Source of the DNA: Spongiibacter tropicus DSM 19543
Lineage (GTDB): Bacteria; Pseudomonadota; Gammaproteobacteria; Pseudomonadales; Spongiibacteraceae
Reading direction: 5' to 3'
Length of the DNA: 64,000 nt
NCBI RefSeq assembly: GCF_000420325.1
Contig: NZ_ATUS01000005.1
Location: 62,001-126,000, forward strand
Position numbers and translations under genes: made by a program. Shown here piece by piece: positions 6,716-17,656 of this stretch. The number at the start of each line of letters is the position of its first letter. Position 1 is the first letter of the stretch. The notes beneath the pieces are model-generated. The model saw only the letters and a list, made by a program, of their open reading frames with translations. It did no database searches and was not told the DNA's origin.

Positions 6716-7303
6716 TTAGATAATTCGGATAAACAGGCCTTCTGAAGAGGCCAGCAGCGTATCGCCGTCGTAACACTCGCCCAGGGCTACCACCTTTTTC
6801 TCGCCAATGTTTTCCAGCCAGGTGGTAAAGCGCAGTTCGCGGAACAATGGCAGCGGTTTTCGGTAGCTCACCTGCAAGGAGGCGGTATACCCCGGTGTAT
6901 TGTTATTCAGGCAGGCAAACGCCAAAAGCTGATCGAAAAGCAGGCTGATGATTCCCCCGTGTACGCTGTTCGGCGGCCCTTCATGGCGCCAGCCAAAAGT
7001 GACGGTGGAAACCACTTTGTTGCCTTCCAGTTCAACATCGATATCGGGGGAGTAGGCATTATACGCCCCGGTAGCCGGGCCGTATGGCAGGATGTCTTGC
7101 AGCCGTTCTCCCGCATTCGCGTTGTAATAGGGCATCAACTTCTGCCCCTGGTGCGCTTGCAAGTCCTGGTTCAGTTTATTGAGCTGAGACGTCATTGCAC
7201 CAAGCTCATCGCTGCTGGCATTCACATTCAGGCTGAGCTCCAGCGTATGCTGGAGTGCTGCGGTGAGGCGTTTCAGTTCCTGTTGAGCGTTATCGGCCGA
7301 CAT
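6716..7303 (-). CDS. PaaI/4HBT-type thioesterase
   Basis: A 195-residue protein from ATG 7303 (MSADNAQQEL); the longer frame upstream is low-complexity and unsupported. A helical N-terminal segment of about 70 residues precedes a hotdog domain with the motif NSVHGGIISLLFDQLLA, where the Asp is the usual catalytic residue and HGG the substrate-binding turn. The family hydrolyses acyl-CoA thioesters. It lies upstream of the TonB receptor on the same strand and is divergent from the diguanylate cyclase gene. Cytoplasmic; substrate unknown. Confidence 0.75.
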   Translation of the reverse strand: MSADNAQQELKRLTAALQHTLELSLNVNASSDELGAMTSQLNKLNQDLQAHQGQKLMPYYNANAGERLQDILPYGPATGAYNAYSPDIDVELEGNKVVSTVTFGWRHEGPPNSVHGGIISLLFDQLLAFACLNNNTPGYTASLQVSYRKPLPLFRELRFTTWLENIGEKKVVALGECYDGDTLLASSEGLFIRII

Positions 7304-7516
7304 GTTTCGGCATTCCTGTGCGTTTGTAATCGTAATGAGGCGAGCAGTGTAATCGCCGAAGGCGATCCTGCAAAGCATCCGCCCCCAAATGCGCGGCCTG
7401 CAGGCCTGTGCCGTTGTGGCGCCGGAATGTCGTCGCGGCCCGCTTGGTCGCGCGTTTTTGCCTGTAGCGGTAAGCCGTGCAAGAATAACCACAGAATCAA
7501 TAGTGCAGGGTTGGGA

Positions 7517-8608
7517 ATGACGAAATTCGTGACGATGCTCAACGGTAGTTCAGCCGAGCAGGCCCGTAATTTCTCCAGTGCTGAATTGATTCGACGTCGA
7601 TACGTTTCCTTCTTCATGCTCGCTTCACTGTTTCTGTGCGGCGTCATCCTGTCGATAACGCATTTTCTTGTTCCGCTGGAGCCAGTGGGGCAGCGATTGA
7701 TACGTGATTTTGGCATCCTGCTGTCGCTGGGAGCGCTGCTTGCCTACGTCGTACTCTGGATAAGCGGCAAGCGGGTGCTGGCGCTCAACCTTTTTATCAT
7801 CGCTCTGGCGCTGGGGATTGCGCGCGTTACCTTGCTGACCGGCGGTATTACTGCTCCCAGTACGATCATGCTGGTCGTGGTGCCCGTGCTGGCTTCAGTG
7901 AGCATAGACCTGCTGGCGGGCTTGTTGTGGCTGGCCATTGTGACGGTGTTCTGGACGCTGGTGTATCTGGCTCCAACGTTGGGGATTCCCGTTGAAAATG
8001 TAATGGCATCCGAGAATCGCGAGATTGGGGTTTTCATTAGCTGCATCTGTACTTCACTGCTTGCCATGTTCGCAACGGGATACTATGAGCGCAGCAATGC
8101 GGCATTGCGCCGTAAGCTTCAGTCGGAACATGCGCTGGCGGTTTACCACGGACAGCATGACCCGTTGACGGGGCTGATGAATCGCCGCTTCTTCGTCGAC
8201 ACAGTTAAGTCGTTTATTGCAGATCCGGCCATGAAGGGCTTTTGTATTCTCTATCTCGATCTCAACGCCTTTAAGCCGATTAATGACAATTATGGCCACC
8301 ATGTGGGCGATGAGGTGTTAATGGCGATAGGTCGCCGTCTGCGTGAGTGTTTTCGCGGGACGGATAGCTGTTGTCGCATTGGTGGCGATGAGTTCTGTGT
8401 ACTTGTTCCCATGGGCCAGCAAGCGCCGATTGCGGATGTCGTGAAGCGTGCGTCTGCGATCTTCAGCGAGCCCGTGGTCATCGAGGGGCGAGAGCTGGCT
8501 ATTTCGGCGTCTATCGGCAGCGCTGTTTTCCCTGCTGATGGGAAAACGTATGAAGAACTGCTGCACTCTGCAGACCAGCAGATGTACAGGGTAAAAAAGG
8601 CCAAGTAA
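7517..8608 (+). CDS. Membrane-bound diguanylate cyclase (GGDEF)
   Basis: A 363-residue protein that makes cyclic di-GMP from two GTP. I chose ATG 7517, preceded by GGGA; the open frame extends far upstream through the neighbour's antisense and is not real there. Five or six hydrophobic segments lie in residues ~35-195, then a linker helix, then a GGDEF domain with the intact signature RIGGDEF and DPLTGLMNRR at its start. No RxxD inhibitory site is obvious five residues before GGDEF (residues there read DSCCRIGG). No EAL domain. The membrane part looks like a sensory module but no known type is assigned. Confidence 0.9.
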   Translation: MTKFVTMLNGSSAEQARNFSSAELIRRRYVSFFMLASLFLCGVILSITHFLVPLEPVGQRLIRDFGILLSLGALLAYVVLWISGKRVLALNLFIIALALGIARVTLLTGGITAPSTIMLVVVPVLASVSIDLLAGLLWLAIVTVFWTLVYLAPTLGIPVENVMASENREIGVFISCICTSLLAMFATGYYERSNAALRRKLQSEHALAVYHGQHDPLTGLMNRRFFVDTVKSFIADPAMKGFCILYLDLNAFKPINDNYGHHVGDEVLMAIGRRLRECFRGTDSCCRIGGDEFCVLVPMGQQAPIADVVKRASAIFSEPVVIEGRELAISASIGSAVFPADGKTYEELLHSADQQMYRVKKAK

Positions 8609-8697
8609 GGCGCAGTGATGTTGAGCCCTTGCCTCCGCCTGTTTTAACGCGTCATGTTGTTGGCGCATGACTAGGACTTGATCCATTGTGGGGTCTT

Positions 8698-11085
8698 ATG
8701 CGTCACCAGCCACCTATGACGAGACTGGCGCTCGCCGCCATTGCAATGCTGCTGTCGGCCTGTTCGACAGGCGTCAAGCAGGCCCAATGGGCCTATGAGA
8801 ACGCCACGCAGGGCAACTACTTGCTCGATTACAGCAGTGTCCCTTCCGGCCATGTGATCAACTTATGCCGCGACTTGATCAACGTTCGCAACTTCCGAGG
8901 TTTTGACCACTGTATTGCGCAGTATGAAGCCCATCACGTGGTAAATGGCGAGTCGGTGTATCGCCACGCGTTTGCCGATATCTACTGGTCGCGGGATTAC
9001 ACCTCCGCGCTGATCAACAGCATGAAGGCGGAGGCCGCGCTTTACCGGTCGAATATTACGGATGTGCAGCATTATTTGCCCAAGGCACAGCAGGCGCTCA
9101 ATGGCAATCTGGCGATCTATTCCGGAGAGGACAGGGATGATCTGCTGGATGAGGGTGACAATATTCGCGGGCCGCTGGCGATTCCTGTTCTTGGTGTGGC
9201 GGCGGTGTATGAAGGCTTGTACGGTTCGAAAGCCAAGGCCCGCGAGTTCATTGTTGAACTCTCCGCAACGGAAACCAACAGCTTTATCACGCCCTATGTA
9301 GAAACCCAAAAGCGCAGTTGGATAGCCAAAGGCTATATCGCCATCGAGGACTATCCCTCGGCGTTGCTGGTAATGAGTGGGCGCGATTCGGAAGCGGTGG
9401 AGTTGCTGGGCACATTGTTCGTGAATGCGAACCCGCTGAGCCATCTCTTTGGTCTGGCCAAATCCATTGATCGCGAAAATCAGTTTTTTGCCGTGGAAAT
9501 GCAGAGCCTGTATTGCCACGCGATGGCGAAGCTGGGGCGTGATGAGGCGCCCGCCTGCTTTGAAAACCTGTTTGCCGGTGAGTTTATCGACGTTTTTGGT
9601 GGTTTGAAGTTTATTGCCTTGCAGCAGTACGGCCGTTTGCAGCTACGCAATGGGCAGCACGACCTTGCTTTGGCAGCACTCTCGGAAGCCGTCGATATTC
9701 TGGAGACGCAGCGGTCCAGTTTGTCGCTGGACAGCACCAAGTTAGGTTTCGTCAGCGATAAGCTGGAGGTGTACTACGATCTGGTCGAGCTGTTTGTTGA
9801 GAAAGATCAGCCTGAGCGGGCGCTGGAGTATGCTGAGCGTGCCAAGGCGCGAGCGCTGGTCGATTTACTTGCGTCTCGAAACCATGAACTCCGACCACCA
9901 GAAACTGACGACATTACTGCGACCCTGTCGGCCATTCAGCAGACAGAGGCATCGCTGGCGACCGTCAATCCCAGTGACACGACGCAGCGCTCGGTAACGC
10001 GGGGACTGTTGAGAAAATATCAGGACAACTTGAGCAAAACCGCGCCGGAGTTTACCTCTCTGCGGGTGGTGACATCGCCGAATATTGCGGAACTGCAGTC
10101 GGCCCTGGAAGAGGGCGAGGGCCTGCTTGAGTATTTCGGCGATGGTGACGACCTCTGGGTATTTATCCTCAGTCGAGAAGGCGTTGCTGCCGCCAGCCTC
10201 TCCGTCGATGGACTGGCATCCATGGTGGCAGCGGTGCGTCGCGATTTGCAGACCCCTGCATCGTCAGCGATCCACCGCAGCAGTCGTCAGCTCTATAACA
10301 GCGTGATTCTTCCGGTTGAGGATCGCCTGCAGGCGTTTGATCGGCTGACCGTTGTGCCCCACGGTCCACTCCACTACGTGCCTTTTGCGGCGTTGTACGA
10401 TGGCGAGCGTTATCTGATCGATAAGCTGGAGCTGCGTGTTTTACCCAGTGCCTCGGTATTGGAGTTTCTTAACGCCGGGCCGAGCGCTGCGGAGAAACCG
10501 ATGTTAATACTCGGTAATCCGGATCTGAAAGACCCTGCGATGGACTTGCCCGGTGCACAAATCGAGGCCGTCAATATTGCAAAAATGCGGCCGGGCGCCG
10601 AGGTCGTACTCAGAGAAAATGCCAGCGAAACCCTGCTCAAGTCGAATGCAGGGCAATACCGCAATCTGCACATCGCCTCTCATGGCATCTTCAATGCGGA
10701 AGACCCCATGGCCTCGGCGTTATTGCTATCAGAAAGTGATCAGGACGATGGCCTGCTATCGGTCGCAGAGCTGTTTGATTTGCGGCTGAATGCGGATCTG
10801 GTCACGCTCTCTGCCTGCGAGACCGCGCTGGGCGAAGTTACCGGCGGCGACGATGTGATCGGCTTTACCCGCGGGTTTTTGTACGCAGGGGCCGAGTCGA
10901 TTGTCGCCAGTTTGTGGAAAGTGAGCGATGTGGCGACCAATCAATTAATGCAGAATTTTTATGAAGGTCTGCCGGAGCAGGGGAAGAGTGCGGCCTTGCG
11001 GCAGGCGCAATTAGCGCTGAAGGGAGGTTTCCATGACCATCCCTATTATTGGGCGGCCTTCCAGCTAACCGGCGAGTACGACTGA
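8698..11085 (+). CDS. CHAT-domain TPR lipoprotein, copy 1
   Basis: A 795-residue predicted lipoprotein. The signal ends in the lipobox LLSAC (ATG 8698 has GTGGGG upstream; ATG 8716 is the alternative). An N-terminal domain carries the family-specific motif FRGFDHCIAQ. TPR-like helices follow to about residue 430, with a conserved AERAKARALVDLLASR. The C-terminal CHAT domain (caspase/HetF-like) has a catalytic-type His662 in ASHGIF and Cys707 in LSACETALG, 45 residues apart. CHAT proteins are cysteine peptidases or scaffolds, often activated by partner proteins. Known examples are mostly cytoplasmic, so an envelope-anchored form is notable. First of three tandem paralogues. Substrate unknown. 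Confidence 0.85.
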   Translation: MRHQPPMTRLALAAIAMLLSACSTGVKQAQWAYENATQGNYLLDYSSVPSGHVINLCRDLINVRNFRGFDHCIAQYEAHHVVNGESVYRHAFADIYWSRDYTSALINSMKAEAALYRSNITDVQHYLPKAQQALNGNLAIYSGEDRDDLLDEGDNIRGPLAIPVLGVAAVYEGLYGSKAKAREFIVELSATETNSFITPYVETQKRSWIAKGYIAIEDYPSALLVMSGRDSEAVELLGTLFVNANPLSHLFGLAKSIDRENQFFAVEMQSLYCHAMAKLGRDEAPACFENLFAGEFIDVFGGLKFIALQQYGRLQLRNGQHDLALAALSEAVDILETQRSSLSLDSTKLGFVSDKLEVYYDLVELFVEKDQPERALEYAERAKARALVDLLASRNHELRPPETDDITATLSAIQQTEASLATVNPSDTTQRSVTRGLLRKYQDNLSKTAPEFTSLRVVTSPNIAELQSALEEGEGLLEYFGDGDDLWVFILSREGVAAASLSVDGLASMVAAVRRDLQTPASSAIHRSSRQLYNSVILPVEDRLQAFDRLTVVPHGPLHYVPFAALYDGERYLIDKLELRVLPSASVLEFLNAGPSAAEKPMLILGNPDLKDPAMDLPGAQIEAVNIAKMRPGAEVVLRENASETLLKSNAGQYRNLHIASHGIFNAEDPMASALLLSESDQDDGLLSVAELFDLRLNADLVTLSACETALGEVTGGDDVIGFTRGFLYAGAESIVASLWKVSDVATNQLMQNFYEGLPEQGKSAALRQAQLALKGGFHDHPYYWAAFQLTGEYD

Positions 11086-11138
11086 ATCCATCTATGATTC
11101 ATATCGTTGCTTTAAAAGAATAATGAATGAGGTTTTGC

Positions 11139-13520
11139 ATGAATAAACTCGCCAGGATAAGCAAATGCCTGTCGTTGGTCATACTGCTTGCCATGGGCGG
11201 CTGTGCGGGCTTTGACTTGTCCGGGCAGTGGGGGCGCGAAAATGCGGTCGCCGGAAACTATCAGCATGATTACGCTGATTTGCATGTGAACGGCGTGCGA
11301 AATTTATGCATGAATTTCGTAAAGGTGCAGAACTTCAAAGGCTTTGATCATTGTATTGCACAGATGGAAATGCATCATGTTGCTGATGGTCGCTTGATGT
11401 CTAGGCATCCTATGGGATACGACCAGAGTTCTCGTGATTATACGACGGCGCTTATTAGTGGCCTTAAAGCCGAAGCGGCGTTGAGTCGTGCCCAGATTGC
11501 GATGGTGCCGGTGTACCTAGACCCTGCCGTTAATGCCGTGCGTGGTCAGCCCGGCGCTTTCATCCTCAATGAAGTGAAGTATATTGACCACGGGCGTGCC
11601 CAAGTAGGCCCTCGTGTACTCGGTGTTGCGGCCGTCTACGAGGGGCTGTATGGCTCCCCCGATGTCGCGCGGGAGTATTTGCAAGAGCTATCAGCGGTTG
11701 ACGTGAGCAGCATGTTAGTTAGCTATATGGAGCCTGAAAAGCGTGCATGGTTGGCCAGGGGGTATATTGCGATCGGAGATTATATCTCGGCGCTTAATAC
11801 GCTAAGCAATGAGGAGGCCAAGACCGATAAGCTGCTCTACGAGGCAATGATGAAGCTCAACCCAGCCTACTATTTGGTGGGCGCGGTGACGGGTGCATCA
11901 ACCGATAAGTGGGATCGGTACTTCAGTCTGGAAAGCGAAGCGATGCTGTGCCACACCCTGTACAAGCTGAAGGCAAAAAGTGCCGAGTCCTGCTATCAGC
12001 AACTATTGCAGCATGAATTTATTGATGTATTTGGCGGCCTGAAATTTGCGGCACTGCAAGAATACGGCCGGCTACAACTATCCGCAGGCGACGACGATAC
12101 GGCCATCAGCGTGTTGAGCGAAGCGGTTGAGCTGCTTGAGGCGCAGCGTTCGAGTCTATCGCTGGATACCTCCAAGCTGGGTTTCGTCAATGACAAACTC
12201 TCGGTGTATCGCGACTTGATTGCCCTGTATGTATCGCGAGACCAAGCTGATCGCGCAATAGAATACGCCGAGCGTGCAAAGGCACGTGCGCTGATTGATT
12301 TGTTGGCCTCCCGCGACGCACAACCTGAGCCGCAAGCTAGCGATCAACTGCAAGAACTTCTCGCCTCTATTGACGATGCGGAGACCTCTCTCGCAGCGAT
12401 TAATCTGAATGATGATAGTCAGCGTTCAGTCACCCGAGGATTGCTGCGTAAGTACCAGCACAGCCTTCAAGAAATGGCGCCGGAATTCACCTCATTGCGG
12501 ACTGTGACCTCGCCGCGTATTGCCCAACTGCAATCCTCCTTGCAGGAGGACGAAGGTCTGTTGGAATACTTTGGCGAGGGTGACGATCTCTGGGTGTTTA
12601 TCCTTAGCCGTCAAGGTGTGTCTGCGGCCAAGCTGTCGGCCACCAACCTCGACACCCAAGTGGCGGTGCTGCGCAGTGATTTGCAGAACCCCAACTCCGC
12701 CCAGTTTGAACGCAGCAGTCACCAGTTATACGTCAGCCTAGTGCAGCCCGTAGAAGACGCTATACAGGGTTTTAAACGCCTGACAGTCGTCCCCCATGGA
12801 ACACTACATTACCTGCCCTTTGCAGCCTTGTACGACGGTGAGCGTTATTTACTCGATCACTTCGAAATACGGGTCTTGCCGAGTGCCTCGGTTCTCCAGT
12901 TTTTGAACAATGACTCGCAGGCCGATAACCAACGTATGTTGGTATTGGGTAATCCCGACCTGGACGATGCATCAATGGATTTGCCGGGAGCCCAAGTTGA
13001 AGCGATTAATCTCGGCCAGATGCGCCCCGATACCGATGTATTACTGCGCAAAAACGCCAGCGAAACCCTGCTTAAAGCCAGTGCAGGAAGCTATCGATAC
13101 TTACACATTGCGTCCCACGGTATTTTTAACGCCGATGATCCGATGGCCTCAGCCTTACTGCTATCAGAAAGTGATCAGGACGATGGACTGCTATCGGTCG
13201 CAGAGCTGTTTGATTTGCGGCTGAATGCGGATCTGGTCACGCTCTCTGCTTGCGAGACCGCGCTGGGTGAAGTCACTGGCGGCGACGATGTGATCGGCTT
13301 TACCCGAGGTTTTTTGTACGCGGGCGCTGAGTCGATTGTCGCCAGTTTATGGAAAGTGAGCGATGTGGCGACCAATCAATTAATGCAGAATTTTTATGAA
13401 GGTCTGCCGGAGCAAGGGAAGAGCGCGGCTTTGCGGCAGGCGCAACTGGCTTTAAAAGCTGATGGCTATTCGCATCCATATTACTGGGCGGCTTTCCAGC
13501 TTACCGGTCAATATGATTAA
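11139..13520 (+). CDS. CHAT-domain TPR lipoprotein, copy 2
   Basis: A 793-residue paralogue of the preceding gene, 53 bases downstream. ATG 11139 is chosen because GAGG sits seven bases before it and a lipobox follows (AMGGC). The same architecture is seen: motif FKGFDHCIAQ, TPR-like region, CHAT domain with His660 (ASHGIF) and Cys705 (SACETALG). The N-terminal 300 residues differ clearly from copy 1 but resemble copy 3 (both begin CAGFDLSGQWG / CASFDLSGDWG after the lipid Cys). The last 110 codons are nearly identical in DNA to copies 1 and 3. All residues expected for peptidase activity are present. Function is not known. Confidence 0.85.
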   Translation: MNKLARISKCLSLVILLAMGGCAGFDLSGQWGRENAVAGNYQHDYADLHVNGVRNLCMNFVKVQNFKGFDHCIAQMEMHHVADGRLMSRHPMGYDQSSRDYTTALISGLKAEAALSRAQIAMVPVYLDPAVNAVRGQPGAFILNEVKYIDHGRAQVGPRVLGVAAVYEGLYGSPDVAREYLQELSAVDVSSMLVSYMEPEKRAWLARGYIAIGDYISALNTLSNEEAKTDKLLYEAMMKLNPAYYLVGAVTGASTDKWDRYFSLESEAMLCHTLYKLKAKSAESCYQQLLQHEFIDVFGGLKFAALQEYGRLQLSAGDDDTAISVLSEAVELLEAQRSSLSLDTSKLGFVNDKLSVYRDLIALYVSRDQADRAIEYAERAKARALIDLLASRDAQPEPQASDQLQELLASIDDAETSLAAINLNDDSQRSVTRGLLRKYQHSLQEMAPEFTSLRTVTSPRIAQLQSSLQEDEGLLEYFGEGDDLWVFILSRQGVSAAKLSATNLDTQVAVLRSDLQNPNSAQFERSSHQLYVSLVQPVEDAIQGFKRLTVVPHGTLHYLPFAALYDGERYLLDHFEIRVLPSASVLQFLNNDSQADNQRMLVLGNPDLDDASMDLPGAQVEAINLGQMRPDTDVLLRKNASETLLKASAGSYRYLHIASHGIFNADDPMASALLLSESDQDDGLLSVAELFDLRLNADLVTLSACETALGEVTGGDDVIGFTRGFLYAGAESIVASLWKVSDVATNQLMQNFYEGLPEQGKSAALRQAQLALKADGYSHPYYWAAFQLTGQYD

Positions 13521-13579
13521 TCATGCTACCAGCTCGTTAAGCGAGAGAATAAAAAAATGGGAGAGAGGGTCGGGGGGAA

Positions 13580-15958
13580 ATGATGCAGCTATGGGGTAAG
13601 AGCGCGTTGCTCGGTATATCGGCAATTGTGCTATCCGGGTGCGCCAGTTTTGATTTGTCCGGGGATTGGGGGCGTGAAAATGCTATTCAGGGTAATTACC
13701 AGTTTAATTACGCTGAGAAGCATTCGACGGGGGTTCAGAACCTGTGCACCAATTTACTGAAAGTGCAGAATTTTAAGGGTTTTGATCATTGTATTTCGCA
13801 GCTACAGGAACATCATGTTGTTGATGGCCGCTTAGTGAGTAGGGCAGCCCTTAGCAACACCTATATGTCGGAAGACTACACCACCGCATTGATAGATGGA
13901 CTTAAAGCCGAGGCGGCACTTAATCGCGCTCACCTTGAAGAGGTCCCTCTTTATCTCGCGCCGGCCTTGGTCGCTGTAAGAGGTGCTCCAGGCCAGTTCC
14001 TGCATGGCAAAATCGGCAGTGTTGATATTTATCGTGCGTATGTTGCACCGAGGGTGTTGGGGGTAGCGGCGGTATACGAAGGGCTATATGGGTCTGAAGA
14101 TAAGTCCCGAGCATATATTGAAGAGCTGGCTGGGCTTGATGTTAGTGGCTGGCTGGTGAGCTATATGGAGCCTGATAAGCGGGCCTGGCTTGCCAAGGCG
14201 TATATTTCTCTTGGCGATTATCCGGCCGCTTACACAGCAATTACCAATGAAGAGGCGGCTGGTGGAAAGCTGTTGTATGAAGCGTTTTTCAAACTGAATC
14301 CCGCCTACTATCTTGTCTCTGCGGTATCCGGAGCGACATCGGACAAGCTTCAGGACTACGCCAACATGGAAAGTGAGGCGATGTTCTGTCACACCCTTTA
14401 TAAGCTGAAGGCAGAGAGCGCAGCAGCCTGTTACGAAAAGCTGTTACAACATCCATTTATCGATGTTTTCGGGGGATTGAAGTTTACCGCTTTGCAGGAA
14501 TATGGCCGTATTCAATTGCATGCAGGGAGTCGGGATAAAGCAAAGGTCGCTCTTACCGAAGCGGTACAAATTTTGGAGGCGCAGCGTTCAAGCTTGTCCC
14601 TGGATACCACAAAGCTGGGTTTTGTTAGTGACAAGTTGTCGGTGTATCGAGACTTGATCGAGTTGTATGTAGCTGAGAACCAGCCAGAGCGCGCCATTGA
14701 GTATTCAGAGCGGGCAAAGGCGCGAGCCCTGGTCGACCTTCTTGCCTCTCGTGATACACCGCCATCGCCAAAGAACGGTGCAGATTTGCAGAGCTTGCTT
14801 GCTTCTGTTGATGACATGGAGAATCGTCTGGCGTCGGTAAGCCTCAATGATGAAGCTGAACGTTCAGCGACGCGAGGACTGCTTAGAAAGTACCAAGAAA
14901 GCCTGAATACGGCTGCACCGGAGTTTACGTCTTTGCGCGTGGTAAGCTCGCCCAGTATCGCTGAACTTCAATCCATGCTGGAGGAAGGTGAGGGTCTGCT
15001 GGAATACTTTGGCGACGGTGATGACTTGTGGGTCTTTGTGCTCAGCCAACAGGGCGTCTCAGCCGCAAAATTAACGGTGGTGGGGCTGGAGTCGCTGATT
15101 GCTACCGTGCGACGTGACCTTCTGGATCCATCGTCAGACCATTTTTCGCGCAGTAGTCGGGAGCTGTATGAGGCTATTCTCGAACCGGTTGAGGAGCGCT
15201 TACAAGGTTTCGAACGCCTCACGGTTGTGCCTCATGCTGCGCTGCATTATGTCCCGTTTTCGGCACTCTACGACGGTCAGGCTTTCCTGATCGATAAGCT
15301 TGAGCTACGTGTACTGCCCAGTGCCTCAGTGTTGAAATTCCTGGTAGGCAGCGAGGATGGTACTGCCGAGTCGATGCTGGTACTGGGAAACCCCGATTTG
15401 AATGACCCTGAAATGGATTTACCGGGCGCGGAACTTGAAGCGATAAATATAGCGAAAATGCGCCCGAATACGGATGTACTGCTGCGTAAAAACGCCAGTG
15501 AGCAGTTGGTGAAGTCCAGCGCCGAACAATACCGGTATCTGCACATCGCCTCGCACGGGATTTTTAATGCAGAAGACCCAATGTCGTCTGCCTTGCTGCT
15601 ATCGGAGGGCGGTGGAGAGGACGGCCTGTTGTCGGTCGCAGAGTTATTTGATTTGCGGCTGAATGCCGATCTGGTCACGCTGTCTGCCTGCGAGACCGCG
15701 CTGGGTGAAGTCACTGGCGGTGACGATGTGATCGGCTTTACCCGCGGGTTTTTGTACGCGGGCGCTGAGTCGATTGTCGCCAGTTTATGGAAAGTGAGCG
15801 ATGTGGCGACCAATCAATTAATGCAGGCTTTTTATGAAGGTCTGCCGGAGCAAGGGAAGAGCGCGGCTTTGCGGCAGGCGCAACTGGCGTTGAAATCAGG
15901 TCAGTACGCCCATCCCTACTACTGGGGCGCATTCCAGCTGACGGGGCAATATGATTAG
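13580..15958 (+). CDS. CHAT-domain TPR lipoprotein, copy 3
   Basis: Third tandem paralogue, 792 residues, 59 bases after copy 2. Signal and lipobox VLSGC follow ATG 13580 (an adjacent ATG at 13583 is equally good). Motif FKGFDHCISQ is present. The TPR-like region includes a second conserved block (LYEAFFKLNPAYYLV) shared with copy 2. CHAT His659 and Cys704 are intact. Its stop overlaps the first possible start of the DUF4384-type gene, so the two are probably translationally coupled. All three copies share spacing, order and catalytic residues, suggesting that diversification was kept rather than decayed. Confidence 0.85.
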   Translation: MMQLWGKSALLGISAIVLSGCASFDLSGDWGRENAIQGNYQFNYAEKHSTGVQNLCTNLLKVQNFKGFDHCISQLQEHHVVDGRLVSRAALSNTYMSEDYTTALIDGLKAEAALNRAHLEEVPLYLAPALVAVRGAPGQFLHGKIGSVDIYRAYVAPRVLGVAAVYEGLYGSEDKSRAYIEELAGLDVSGWLVSYMEPDKRAWLAKAYISLGDYPAAYTAITNEEAAGGKLLYEAFFKLNPAYYLVSAVSGATSDKLQDYANMESEAMFCHTLYKLKAESAAACYEKLLQHPFIDVFGGLKFTALQEYGRIQLHAGSRDKAKVALTEAVQILEAQRSSLSLDTTKLGFVSDKLSVYRDLIELYVAENQPERAIEYSERAKARALVDLLASRDTPPSPKNGADLQSLLASVDDMENRLASVSLNDEAERSATRGLLRKYQESLNTAAPEFTSLRVVSSPSIAELQSMLEEGEGLLEYFGDGDDLWVFVLSQQGVSAAKLTVVGLESLIATVRRDLLDPSSDHFSRSSRELYEAILEPVEERLQGFERLTVVPHAALHYVPFSALYDGQAFLIDKLELRVLPSASVLKFLVGSEDGTAESMLVLGNPDLNDPEMDLPGAELEAINIAKMRPNTDVLLRKNASEQLVKSSAEQYRYLHIASHGIFNAEDPMSSALLLSEGGGEDGLLSVAELFDLRLNADLVTLSACETALGEVTGGDDVIGFTRGFLYAGAESIVASLWKVSDVATNQLMQAFYEGLPEQGKSAALRQAQLALKSGQYAHPYYWGAFQLTGQYD

Positions 15959-15968
15959 TTTTGAGGTA

Positions 15969-17384
15969 ATGACAAGAATGGTAATGGCTGCTCAGCGAAA
16001 ACAGGCTTCATTGGGGATGGCGTTGATTGCGCTGCTCTGTGCTAACAGCAGCCATGCGCAAAACATGGTTGGGCTTGGGTACGGCGATTCCAGAGAAAAA
16101 GCTGTTCAGCTTGCTTACGTTGATCTGGCGCAGCAACTGTTCGTTAGAGTTGAATCGATAACCGAAGTTAATCAAACTCTTGAGAGTAGTCGTATTTCCC
16201 AGCGCTCGATCTCTGAAACCGATATTCCTCTTTTGCAGGTTCCGGTCAGCTGCTCGGTGACGAGTGCGGAGCACGAATGTCGGGCGGAGTTTGATTCTGT
16301 GGCAGCGCGGCCTCGCTACCAGAAGGCGCTGGCGCAAGCGGAAAGTGGCCTGCGTGAAGATTATGCCCGTTATCAGTCGGTAAGTGCGGATGCCAAGTAT
16401 CCGGCTGGAAAAACCTTGGCCACAGCGTTGAGTAATTATCAAAAGCTTCGCCGCGTCGCCGGTTTTCTGAACTTGGACTCTGACTTTAATCCCCGTGATA
16501 TCGCCTCGGCTGTGGCGCAATGGCAGGCGTCAGCGCGCTTTAATGTCTCATCGTTGCGCGCTGCCGCCGAGCTGATTGTTGACGACGTTGCAGAAGCGAA
16601 TGTGAGCGTCACGCCGCCGTTTGTCCAGGACTCACAAGAGTTGACTCCGTTTGGGCGCGCCTTCCTCAAGGAGCTTGAAACACAGCTGGGTGCCAGATTG
16701 GGCAAGCATGCACCGCGCTATCAACTGCTTGGCAGTTATGTCGTGAACGAGAAGGGCATGGACCTCAGTTACGAACTGATTGACCTGCAGGGCAACACCA
16801 CGATGCAGGTAAAACAGATTCACCTGCTGCCGACGGCGTATTCTTCCTATGAGACCGAGCCGAGCTCGATAGATTTTGATCAGCTGTTGCGCAAAGGGTT
16901 CGCGGTCTCCAGTGACTTTTCGGTTGCCGTGGCCACCAATAAAGGTATGCGCAACCTGGCCTTTGAAGCAGGGGATTCACTGGAACTGCTGGTGAAGCTG
17001 AATCGCCCCGGTTACTTCTATGTGGTGGGTTACAGCCGGGAGGATGATGCAGATATCCAATATCTTCTGCCGATTGGCTACGGCCGCGGTCGCGAGCAGT
17101 TTGTGCAGTATGTTTCCGCCGAACAGGCTAATCGCTGGGTGTCGCTAGGGGCGTTTGAAGTCGCTCCACCATTTGGCACCGAACGCCTGCAGGTTTTTGC
17201 TGCAGAAGAAACCCCCATCGACTCGCTGCCGCCACATTTCTACGATGACGAAAGTGGTTACTACCTCATCGGTGAGAATGCTGCTGCACCAAAAGTTGCG
17301 GATAGAACGCGAGGGCTGAAACGGATTCGTCAGGAAAGCAAGGCCGAGGCGGAGTCAGTACTGATCTTTTCAACCTACGAGTGA
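15969..17384 (+). CDS. Secreted LPP20/DUF4384-type protein at end of CHAT operon
   Basis: About 471 residues from ATG 15969; starts at 15951 (overlapping the CHAT stop) and 15978 are also possible. A signal peptide ends near CANSSHAQ. The N-terminal part resembles LPP20/LpoB-like domains (GLGYGDSREKAVQLAYVDLAQQL). The C-terminal part (residues ~300-430) looks like DUF4384, with a 'surface-feature' pattern LLVKLNRPGYFYVVGY and YLLPIGYGRGREQF. DUF4384 domains occur next to proteases and kinases in envelope systems, but no reaction is known. Position and coupling suggest it works with the three CHAT lipoproteins in the periplasm. Family calls are from recalled patterns. Confidence 0.65.
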   Translation: MTRMVMAAQRKQASLGMALIALLCANSSHAQNMVGLGYGDSREKAVQLAYVDLAQQLFVRVESITEVNQTLESSRISQRSISETDIPLLQVPVSCSVTSAEHECRAEFDSVAARPRYQKALAQAESGLREDYARYQSVSADAKYPAGKTLATALSNYQKLRRVAGFLNLDSDFNPRDIASAVAQWQASARFNVSSLRAAAELIVDDVAEANVSVTPPFVQDSQELTPFGRAFLKELETQLGARLGKHAPRYQLLGSYVVNEKGMDLSYELIDLQGNTTMQVKQIHLLPTAYSSYETEPSSIDFDQLLRKGFAVSSDFSVAVATNKGMRNLAFEAGDSLELLVKLNRPGYFYVVGYSREDDADIQYLLPIGYGRGREQFVQYVSAEQANRWVSLGAFEVAPPFGTERLQVFAAEETPIDSLPPHFYDDESGYYLIGENAAAPKVADRTRGLKRIRQESKAEAESVLIFSTYE

Positions 17385-17438
17385 TTCGACGGCTGCTTTT
17401 TCAGGATAGCGCTGGTCATTGGCAACGCAGGAAAGGCA

Positions 17439-17525
17439 TGGTACCAGAGGCCGGACTCGAACCGGCACGCCCGTGAAGGCAAGGGATTTTGAATCCCTCA
17501 TGTCTACCAATTTCATCACTCTGGC
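17439..17525 (-). tRNA. tRNA-Leu (anticodon CAA)
   Basis: Read on the minus strand, an 87-nt class II tRNA begins GCCAGAG and ends CTCTGGT followed by A and an encoded CCA. The acceptor stem pairs over seven positions with a final G-U. The anticodon loop reads TTCAAAA, giving CAA. The long variable arm (roughly TGCCTTCACGGGCG) fits leucine. It lies alone between the CHAT operon and queA. Confidence 0.93.
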
Positions 17526-17656
17526 ACTGAGATGAGGGCGCGATTATAGCAGCCTTTATCGGGCGGTCAATTCTTTCAAGGACTTAGCGGTCGAAAGTGG
17601 TGCCGGAGCGCGATTTCCGTTAACCTTGCGGCCTTTCCTTAATGCCTCCAGACCCC

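Follow-up and report, generated by a model that had tools for sequence, protein, structure and literature searches.

The subject of this work is a window of 64,000 nucleotides from Spongiibacter tropicus DSM 19543 (contig NZ_ATUS01000005.1, positions 62,001 to 126,000 of the forward strand), and in it a plus-strand operon of three consecutive genes for TPR-like/CHAT proteins, here called A, B and C, followed by a gene for a DUF4384 protein, D. The C-terminal 95 to 110 codons or so of A, B and C, which include the catalytic cysteine, have been homogenised by gene conversion. CHAT, TPR and DUF4384 are each known singly; new are an apparently exported CHAT family with a cysteine signature and a tandem array in which, in two genomes, only the catalytic end is converted. 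A preliminary description of this DNA had mentioned neither the homogenised block nor a fourth paralogue in the same genome nor the insertion of the locus beside a tRNA-Leu gene.

The converted block comprises residues 681-775 of C (15620-15904) and the equivalent parts of A (10747-11031) and B (13182-13466), all on the plus strand. It forms the Cys half of the CHAT domain, including the catalytic Cys704 and excluding His659 (C numbering). Third codon positions of the three genes agree for 80-85% in this block versus about 35% elsewhere, and runs of identical bases reach a length of 78. A comparison can be made with a congener, G015 (genomes are given here as G numbers and loci as L numbers), in which two copies lie in tandem: one (L046:6707-9094) is orthologous to A over residues 1-660 and the other is of the B/C type. 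Between the two genomes, third positions in the block are 35-43% alike, while the two copies of G015 are 75% alike among themselves at these positions and 100% identical as protein. Codon bias does not account for the similarity of the C-terminal block, because the orthologues of the two genomes are dissimilar in this region. When A and C are compared with the G015 pair, the informative sites in residues 1-660 favour orthology by 246 to 68, and those in residues 681-791 favour the genome of origin by 56 to 2. The two ends of the proteins thus give opposite trees, each of which rejects the topology of the other (constrained trees, delta logL 208 and 102; approximately unbiased test, p 3e-85 and 8e-85), so homogenisation has occurred separately in the two genomes and at the same end of the protein. 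A CHAT gene pair in G029 was dismissed as a third case, the genes being about 2 kb apart with differing C-termini. In a cyanobacterial locus (L013:123-9900), two nearby CHAT-type genes have near-identical N-termini; there, a masked stretch prevents a test for conversion.

Gene A (8698-11085; 795 residues) encodes a lipobox with C22, a Cys pair C57-x14-C72, TPR-like helices and a CHAT domain with His662 and Cys707. The same architecture is found in B (11139-13520, start ATG at 11139; 793 residues; His660/Cys705) and in C (13580-15958; 792 residues; His659/Cys704). The CHAT model PF12770 is matched over almost its full length with 257, 265 and 258 bits (cut-off 24; E about 1e-76 each), and the His/Cys dyad, spaced by 45 residues in each copy, is invariant across nine homologues. 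The preliminary description, which had proposed three tandem lipobox CHAT genes followed by D, a dyad at exactly these positions and a shared GFDHCI motif, is therefore confirmed in order, strand and detail: the motif NF(R/K)GFDHCI is present in A, B and C, and its cysteine is one half of the invariant Cys-x14-Cys pair. Its TPR-like repeats give only sub-threshold Pfam matches (best E 4e-4), but the label is fair, since the structure prediction shows only helices as far as about residue 445. By inspection, the lipobox cysteine is residue 21 or 22 in the three proteins and most homologues, the weakest lipobox of the three being that of B (AMGGC); the proteins are probably exported, lipid-anchored lipoproteins. 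The spacing is 53 nt between A and B and 59 nt between B and C, and D overlaps C by 8 nt. Promoter and terminator scans of the locus gave no excess over shuffled sequence, so that transcription as a single operon is deduced from the gene spacing only.

Gene D (15951-17384, plus strand) encodes a predicted exported protein that has a signal peptide and no lipobox. Its C-terminal DUF4384 domain (PF14326) is marginal, at 28.2 bits against a cut-off of 27, and exceeds the cut-off in a genome search too; the LPP20 model (PF02169), at 15.7 bits against 25.9, falls below it. The N-terminus can be called LPP20-like.

A, B and C belong to a wider gammaproteobacterial family with members in G144, G308, G416, G544 and G639 and a solitary fourth paralogue in S. 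tropicus itself, about 2 kb beyond the window (G000:C5:128227-130656). Lipobox, Cys-x14-Cys, helical region and CHAT domain are common to the family, except that the second copy of G144 does not share the lipobox. The fourth paralogue (L005:2221-4662) is divergent from a gene for an extracytoplasmic function (ECF) sigma factor with DUF6596 (L005:486-1736). In G308 and G416, genes for putative exported or outer-membrane-like proteins without a Pfam match (L128:7548-8330 and L133:1140-2417) lie directly upstream of the CHAT lipoprotein gene. Every cysteine of the mature A, B and C proteins is that of the lipobox, a member of one of two N-terminal pairs or the catalytic residue, and the family as a whole has almost no other cysteines. 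The Cys-x14-Cys pair is kept in all 13 full-length members checked, a count that possibly includes A, B and C. Such a pattern is as expected of oxidised exported proteins, and the pair may form a disulfide. A truncated copy in G639 has no N-terminus, and a copy in G544 escaped the His-motif pattern, as its motif reads HMASHG, in which the histidine is still present.

In an AlphaFold2 model of C, helices extend to about residue 445 and are followed by a CHAT-like part with a predicted local distance difference test (pLDDT) score mostly of 85-94; both the fold and the catalytic pair on which the preliminary description depended were found. The best Foldseek matches are to Csx29 (E 2e-16 to 5e-13); DdvA (5e-13) comes next and separases after it. 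Sequence profiles reach Csx29 weakly, and single-sequence searches for solved structures gave no match. Csx29, the protease of type III-E CRISPR (Craspase), has a TPR region and a C-terminal CHAT domain as well, with a dyad spacing of 42-43 residues compared with 45 in A, B and C. It is, however, cytoplasmic and RNA-guided, whereas A, B and C carry a lipobox and disulfide-type Cys pairs. They score 49-62 bits against the Csx29 model NF041237 (cut-off 300), and no Cas7-11, Csx30 or Csx31 occurs near A-D. The nearest membrane-linked relative by fold is DdvA, a transmembrane anti-sigma factor of Myxococcus that regulates DdvS and is matched over most of the chain. In contrast to DdvA, A, B and C are putative lipoproteins with a lipobox anchor and without an anti-sigma domain in a Pfam scan, and no sequence match between them was found. 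HetF of Anabaena is a membrane-associated CHAT protease with TPR, the active site of which is needed (PMC8406250); it differs in its N-terminal CHAT domain, its transmembrane anchor and its role in division and heterocyst formation. Finally, the TPR-CHAT half aligns at 28-35% identity with "CHAT domain-containing TPR" proteins from Cyanobacteria, Acidobacteria and other groups, several of which have signal-peptide-like N-termini. These have other N-terminal domains, and neither tandem conversion nor a D partner has been shown for them. The earlier view that CHAT proteins are usually studied in the cytoplasm holds for the characterised cases, but exported TPR-CHAT proteins are encoded in many database genomes.

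The distribution of the locus is patchy. A tandem array is found in two of the 18 genomes of the genus, with three copies in one and two in the other; other relatives have one or two dispersed copies, and most family members are single and without an adjacent D. The expectation of one conserved layout is not supported by this, and under the refuting condition set in the preliminary description, of single genes without DUF4384, its claim of one fixed system fails in part. Among 294 sampled genomes of the order, close full-length homologues of the lipoproteins occur in three and D homologues in four, and the three are all among the four (Fisher p 1e-6, or 4e-4 when genera are counted). In a class sample, a DUF4384 protein is present in 3/3 genomes with the lipoprotein and in 12/143 overall (p 5e-4); addition of G544 and G639, which are from outside this sample and have the lipoprotein without a DUF4384 hit, weakens the value to 0.004. 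As the sampled genomes are not independent, all these p values are to be taken as indications. D is thus associated with the family non-randomly, though not obligately. Its position varies: adjacent here, on another contig in G015, and one gene away from the CHAT gene in G144, where a 193-residue putative lipoprotein without a Pfam match is encoded in between (L050:9441-10022).

DUF4384 also has links with another type of protease. Of 473 cyanobacterial orthocaspases, 23 carry the domain as a fusion (PMC8283722); orthocaspases are, like A, B and C, clan CD proteases, but belong to family C14 rather than CHAT and are linked to DUF4384 by fusion or adjacency (PMC8283722; PMC6426788), D being a separate protein here. 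In G308, a C14 protease gene adjoins the CHAT lipoprotein gene, with a DUF4384 match directly downstream on the same contig and strand; in the open reading frame (ORF) as called, Pfam lists only Peptidase_C14 at E <0.01, so that a C14-DUF4384 fusion is uncertain. In G416, a C14-DUF4384 ORF and the CHAT gene are on separate contigs. In G352 a C14 gene directly precedes a D-like gene, and in G069 one lies 2 kb from D. DUF4384 is found C-terminally on kinases as well. What is supported of the idea of D as a shared partner is a non-random association of D-like or DUF4384 proteins with CHAT and other caspase-type proteases, and not a constant linkage. In an Armatimonadetes contig (L008:1-4439), a C14-like caspase ORF lies directly upstream of, and overlaps, a CHAT ORF.

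The locus is accessory and has been inserted at a tRNA-Leu hotspot. A-D are flanked by genes for a TonB receptor, a thioesterase and a GGDEF protein on one side or the other, together with tRNA-Leu, QueA and Tgt. The tRNA-Leu(CAA) gene (17439-17525, minus strand; ARAGORN), which borders the insertion with its 3' end toward the operon, is kept beside queA in 16 of 17 congeners. In G012, a close relative, the tRNA is directly followed by the genes for the thioesterase and the TonB receptor, and in other relatives the site between them (6716-17642 in the window; L163-L170) is occupied by an Ig-like lipoprotein gene, an insertion sequence (IS) transposase or an SOS-peptidase-like gene. Because G012 lacks an insert and the others have different genes, GGDEF-A-B-C-D is an insertion, about 10 kb long, at a site of variable content. 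The GGDEF diguanylate cyclase gene (7505-8608, plus strand; Pfam GGDEF E 3e-41) lies directly upstream, some 90 nt before A. It is part of the same insertion, no homologue of it being found beside tRNA-Leu in the sampled relatives, and is perhaps co-transcribed with A-D. No attachment-site repeat was found at the tRNA and no integrase ORF was seen, so that a classic tRNA-integrating element is not demonstrated. A search of viral contigs for homologues of the CHAT lipoproteins gave none, and a phage origin is therefore not shown; a plasmid search gave distant TPR-CHAT matches only, none of which covers 80% of the query. In G015 (L046:6707-17390), the tandem pair is situated 113 nt from, and divergent to, a WYL regulator gene, which is followed by type I-E cas3, cas8e and cas11e.

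On the basis of these data it is possible to speculate about the function of the array. The reading that we prefer, tentatively and at somewhat less than an even chance, is that of envelope receptor-proteases with diverged sensors, a gene-converted catalytic end, a shared target and D as a shared partner. A, B and C would be envelope-anchored, probably outer-membrane-sorted members of an exported TPR-like/CHAT caspase-like family. The N-terminal helical domain, braced by the Cys-x14-Cys disulfide, would hold CHAT inactive and respond in each copy to its own extracytoplasmic cue, and release would allow the His/Cys dyad to cut a target common to all copies. As the sensor halves diverge, repeated conversion would hold the Cys half of CHAT nearly identical among the copies of a genome. 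There is a precedent in Csx29, which is kept inactive until its CHAT domain opens on a signal passed from other subunits, and of which mutation of the catalytic Cys abolishes cleavage; Csx30, the substrate of Csx29, is bound by the C-terminal CHAT2 domain alone (PMC9729208; PMC10028731). By analogy, the converted block would carry the likely substrate face along with the catalytic Cys, so that selection for one shared target appears to be the simplest reading, against passive conversion between tandem genes as the null. The purpose of such an array could be defence, a response to envelope stress or sigma-factor signalling. The putatively periplasmic D protein would act as an adaptor, or as a partner that reads the signal, for all copies; this seems more likely than a role as substrate, since DUF4384 is fused to, or lies beside, unrelated enzymes. 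Of the envelope multi-protease system proposed in the preliminary description, the exported and probably lipid-anchored CHAT proteases are supported, and so are copies with diverged N-termini and a common catalytic end, a point that the conversion makes far stronger. The most elaborate version of the preferred reading, an extracytoplasmic receptor array of outer-membrane proteases with a DUF4384 adaptor and with conversion enforcing a common output, is rather doubtful. Several observations weigh against the preferred reading. D is unlinked in G015 and is 39% identical there, versus about 70-80% for A; the lipoprotein occurs without a DUF4384 hit in G544 and G639, and D or a D-like protein occurs without such a lipoprotein in G069, G352, G421 and G495. 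The model of C comes from a shallow alignment (11 sequences), with a predicted template modelling (pTM) score of 0.48 and a poorly modelled N-terminus, its whole-chain template modelling (TM) scores against Csx29 are just 0.36-0.43, and a single-sequence model of D reached a pLDDT of 35 only. Moreover, conversion could be a by-product of tandem similarity, with no selection for a common substrate.

This last point leads to a non-adaptive explanation, in which A, B and C are merely tandem-duplicated paralogues subject to passive conversion and D is a chance neighbour. Tandem repeats do convert spontaneously, solitary paralogues are common, and D is unlinked in the sister genome; nevertheless, the limit of conversion is close to the same position in both genomes, the remainder being spared, all three copies retain an intact dyad and intact Cys pairs, and within the order D and the family co-occur even by genera. 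This explanation is improbable. About as improbable is a trans-envelope control of transcription through an ECF sigma pathway, possibly without any defence function, comparable to the release of CASP-sigma by Csx29. It would agree with the sigma gene divergent from the fourth paralogue, with the fold match to the anti-sigma factor DdvA, the partner of which, DdvS, controls a defence island (PMC12288465), and with TPR-CHAT genes that adjoin ECF sigma and zinc-finger/anti-sigma-type genes in L007 (733-4928), L009 (7765-11829) and G029; yet no sigma or anti-sigma gene is present in or beside A-D, the adjacent signalling gene being the GGDEF cyclase. The genes of L007, L009 and L171 (9243-13700), some with signal peptides, come from unrelated phyla and may represent a recurring sigma pairing. 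An accessory defence against phages or competitors, in which envelope breach or phage adsorption activates the proteases and cleavage kills or arrests the cell, is unlikely, though less so. It is in line with the patchy presence at a variable insertion site, with the cas genes next to the G015 pair and with the often defensive role of studied CHAT and caspase proteases (PMC9729208, PMC10907252). However, no PADLOC defence model fits A-D beyond weak CHAT matches to BovA (17-21 bits), the other cargo of the tRNA-Leu site is not obviously defensive, and the CRISPR neighbourhood is one case, the loci of other relatives having no defence neighbours. The least probable of these alternatives is that D is itself the substrate, cleaved by the CHAT proteases into a product that carries the signal. 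The overlap with C, the co-occurrence and the Csx29/Csx30 precedent (PMC10028731) would suit it, and a single shared substrate would account for the homogenised catalytic end, but the fusions of DUF4384 to protease and kinase domains and its place beside unrelated C14 proteases are sensor- or adaptor-like (PMC6426788), and no DUF4384 hit accompanies the protease in G544 and G639.

The locus provides objects that can be tested, namely the dyad, the Cys-x14-Cys pair and a candidate partner, and a sister genome is at hand to compare it with. DUF4384, a domain of unknown function, is in addition connected by it with two kinds of caspase-fold protease. Bacterial caspase-like proteases have mostly been studied inside the cell, and this locus points to an exported, lipid-anchored family. 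The two independent conversions of the catalytic end suggest that its copies may share a substrate while sensing different things.

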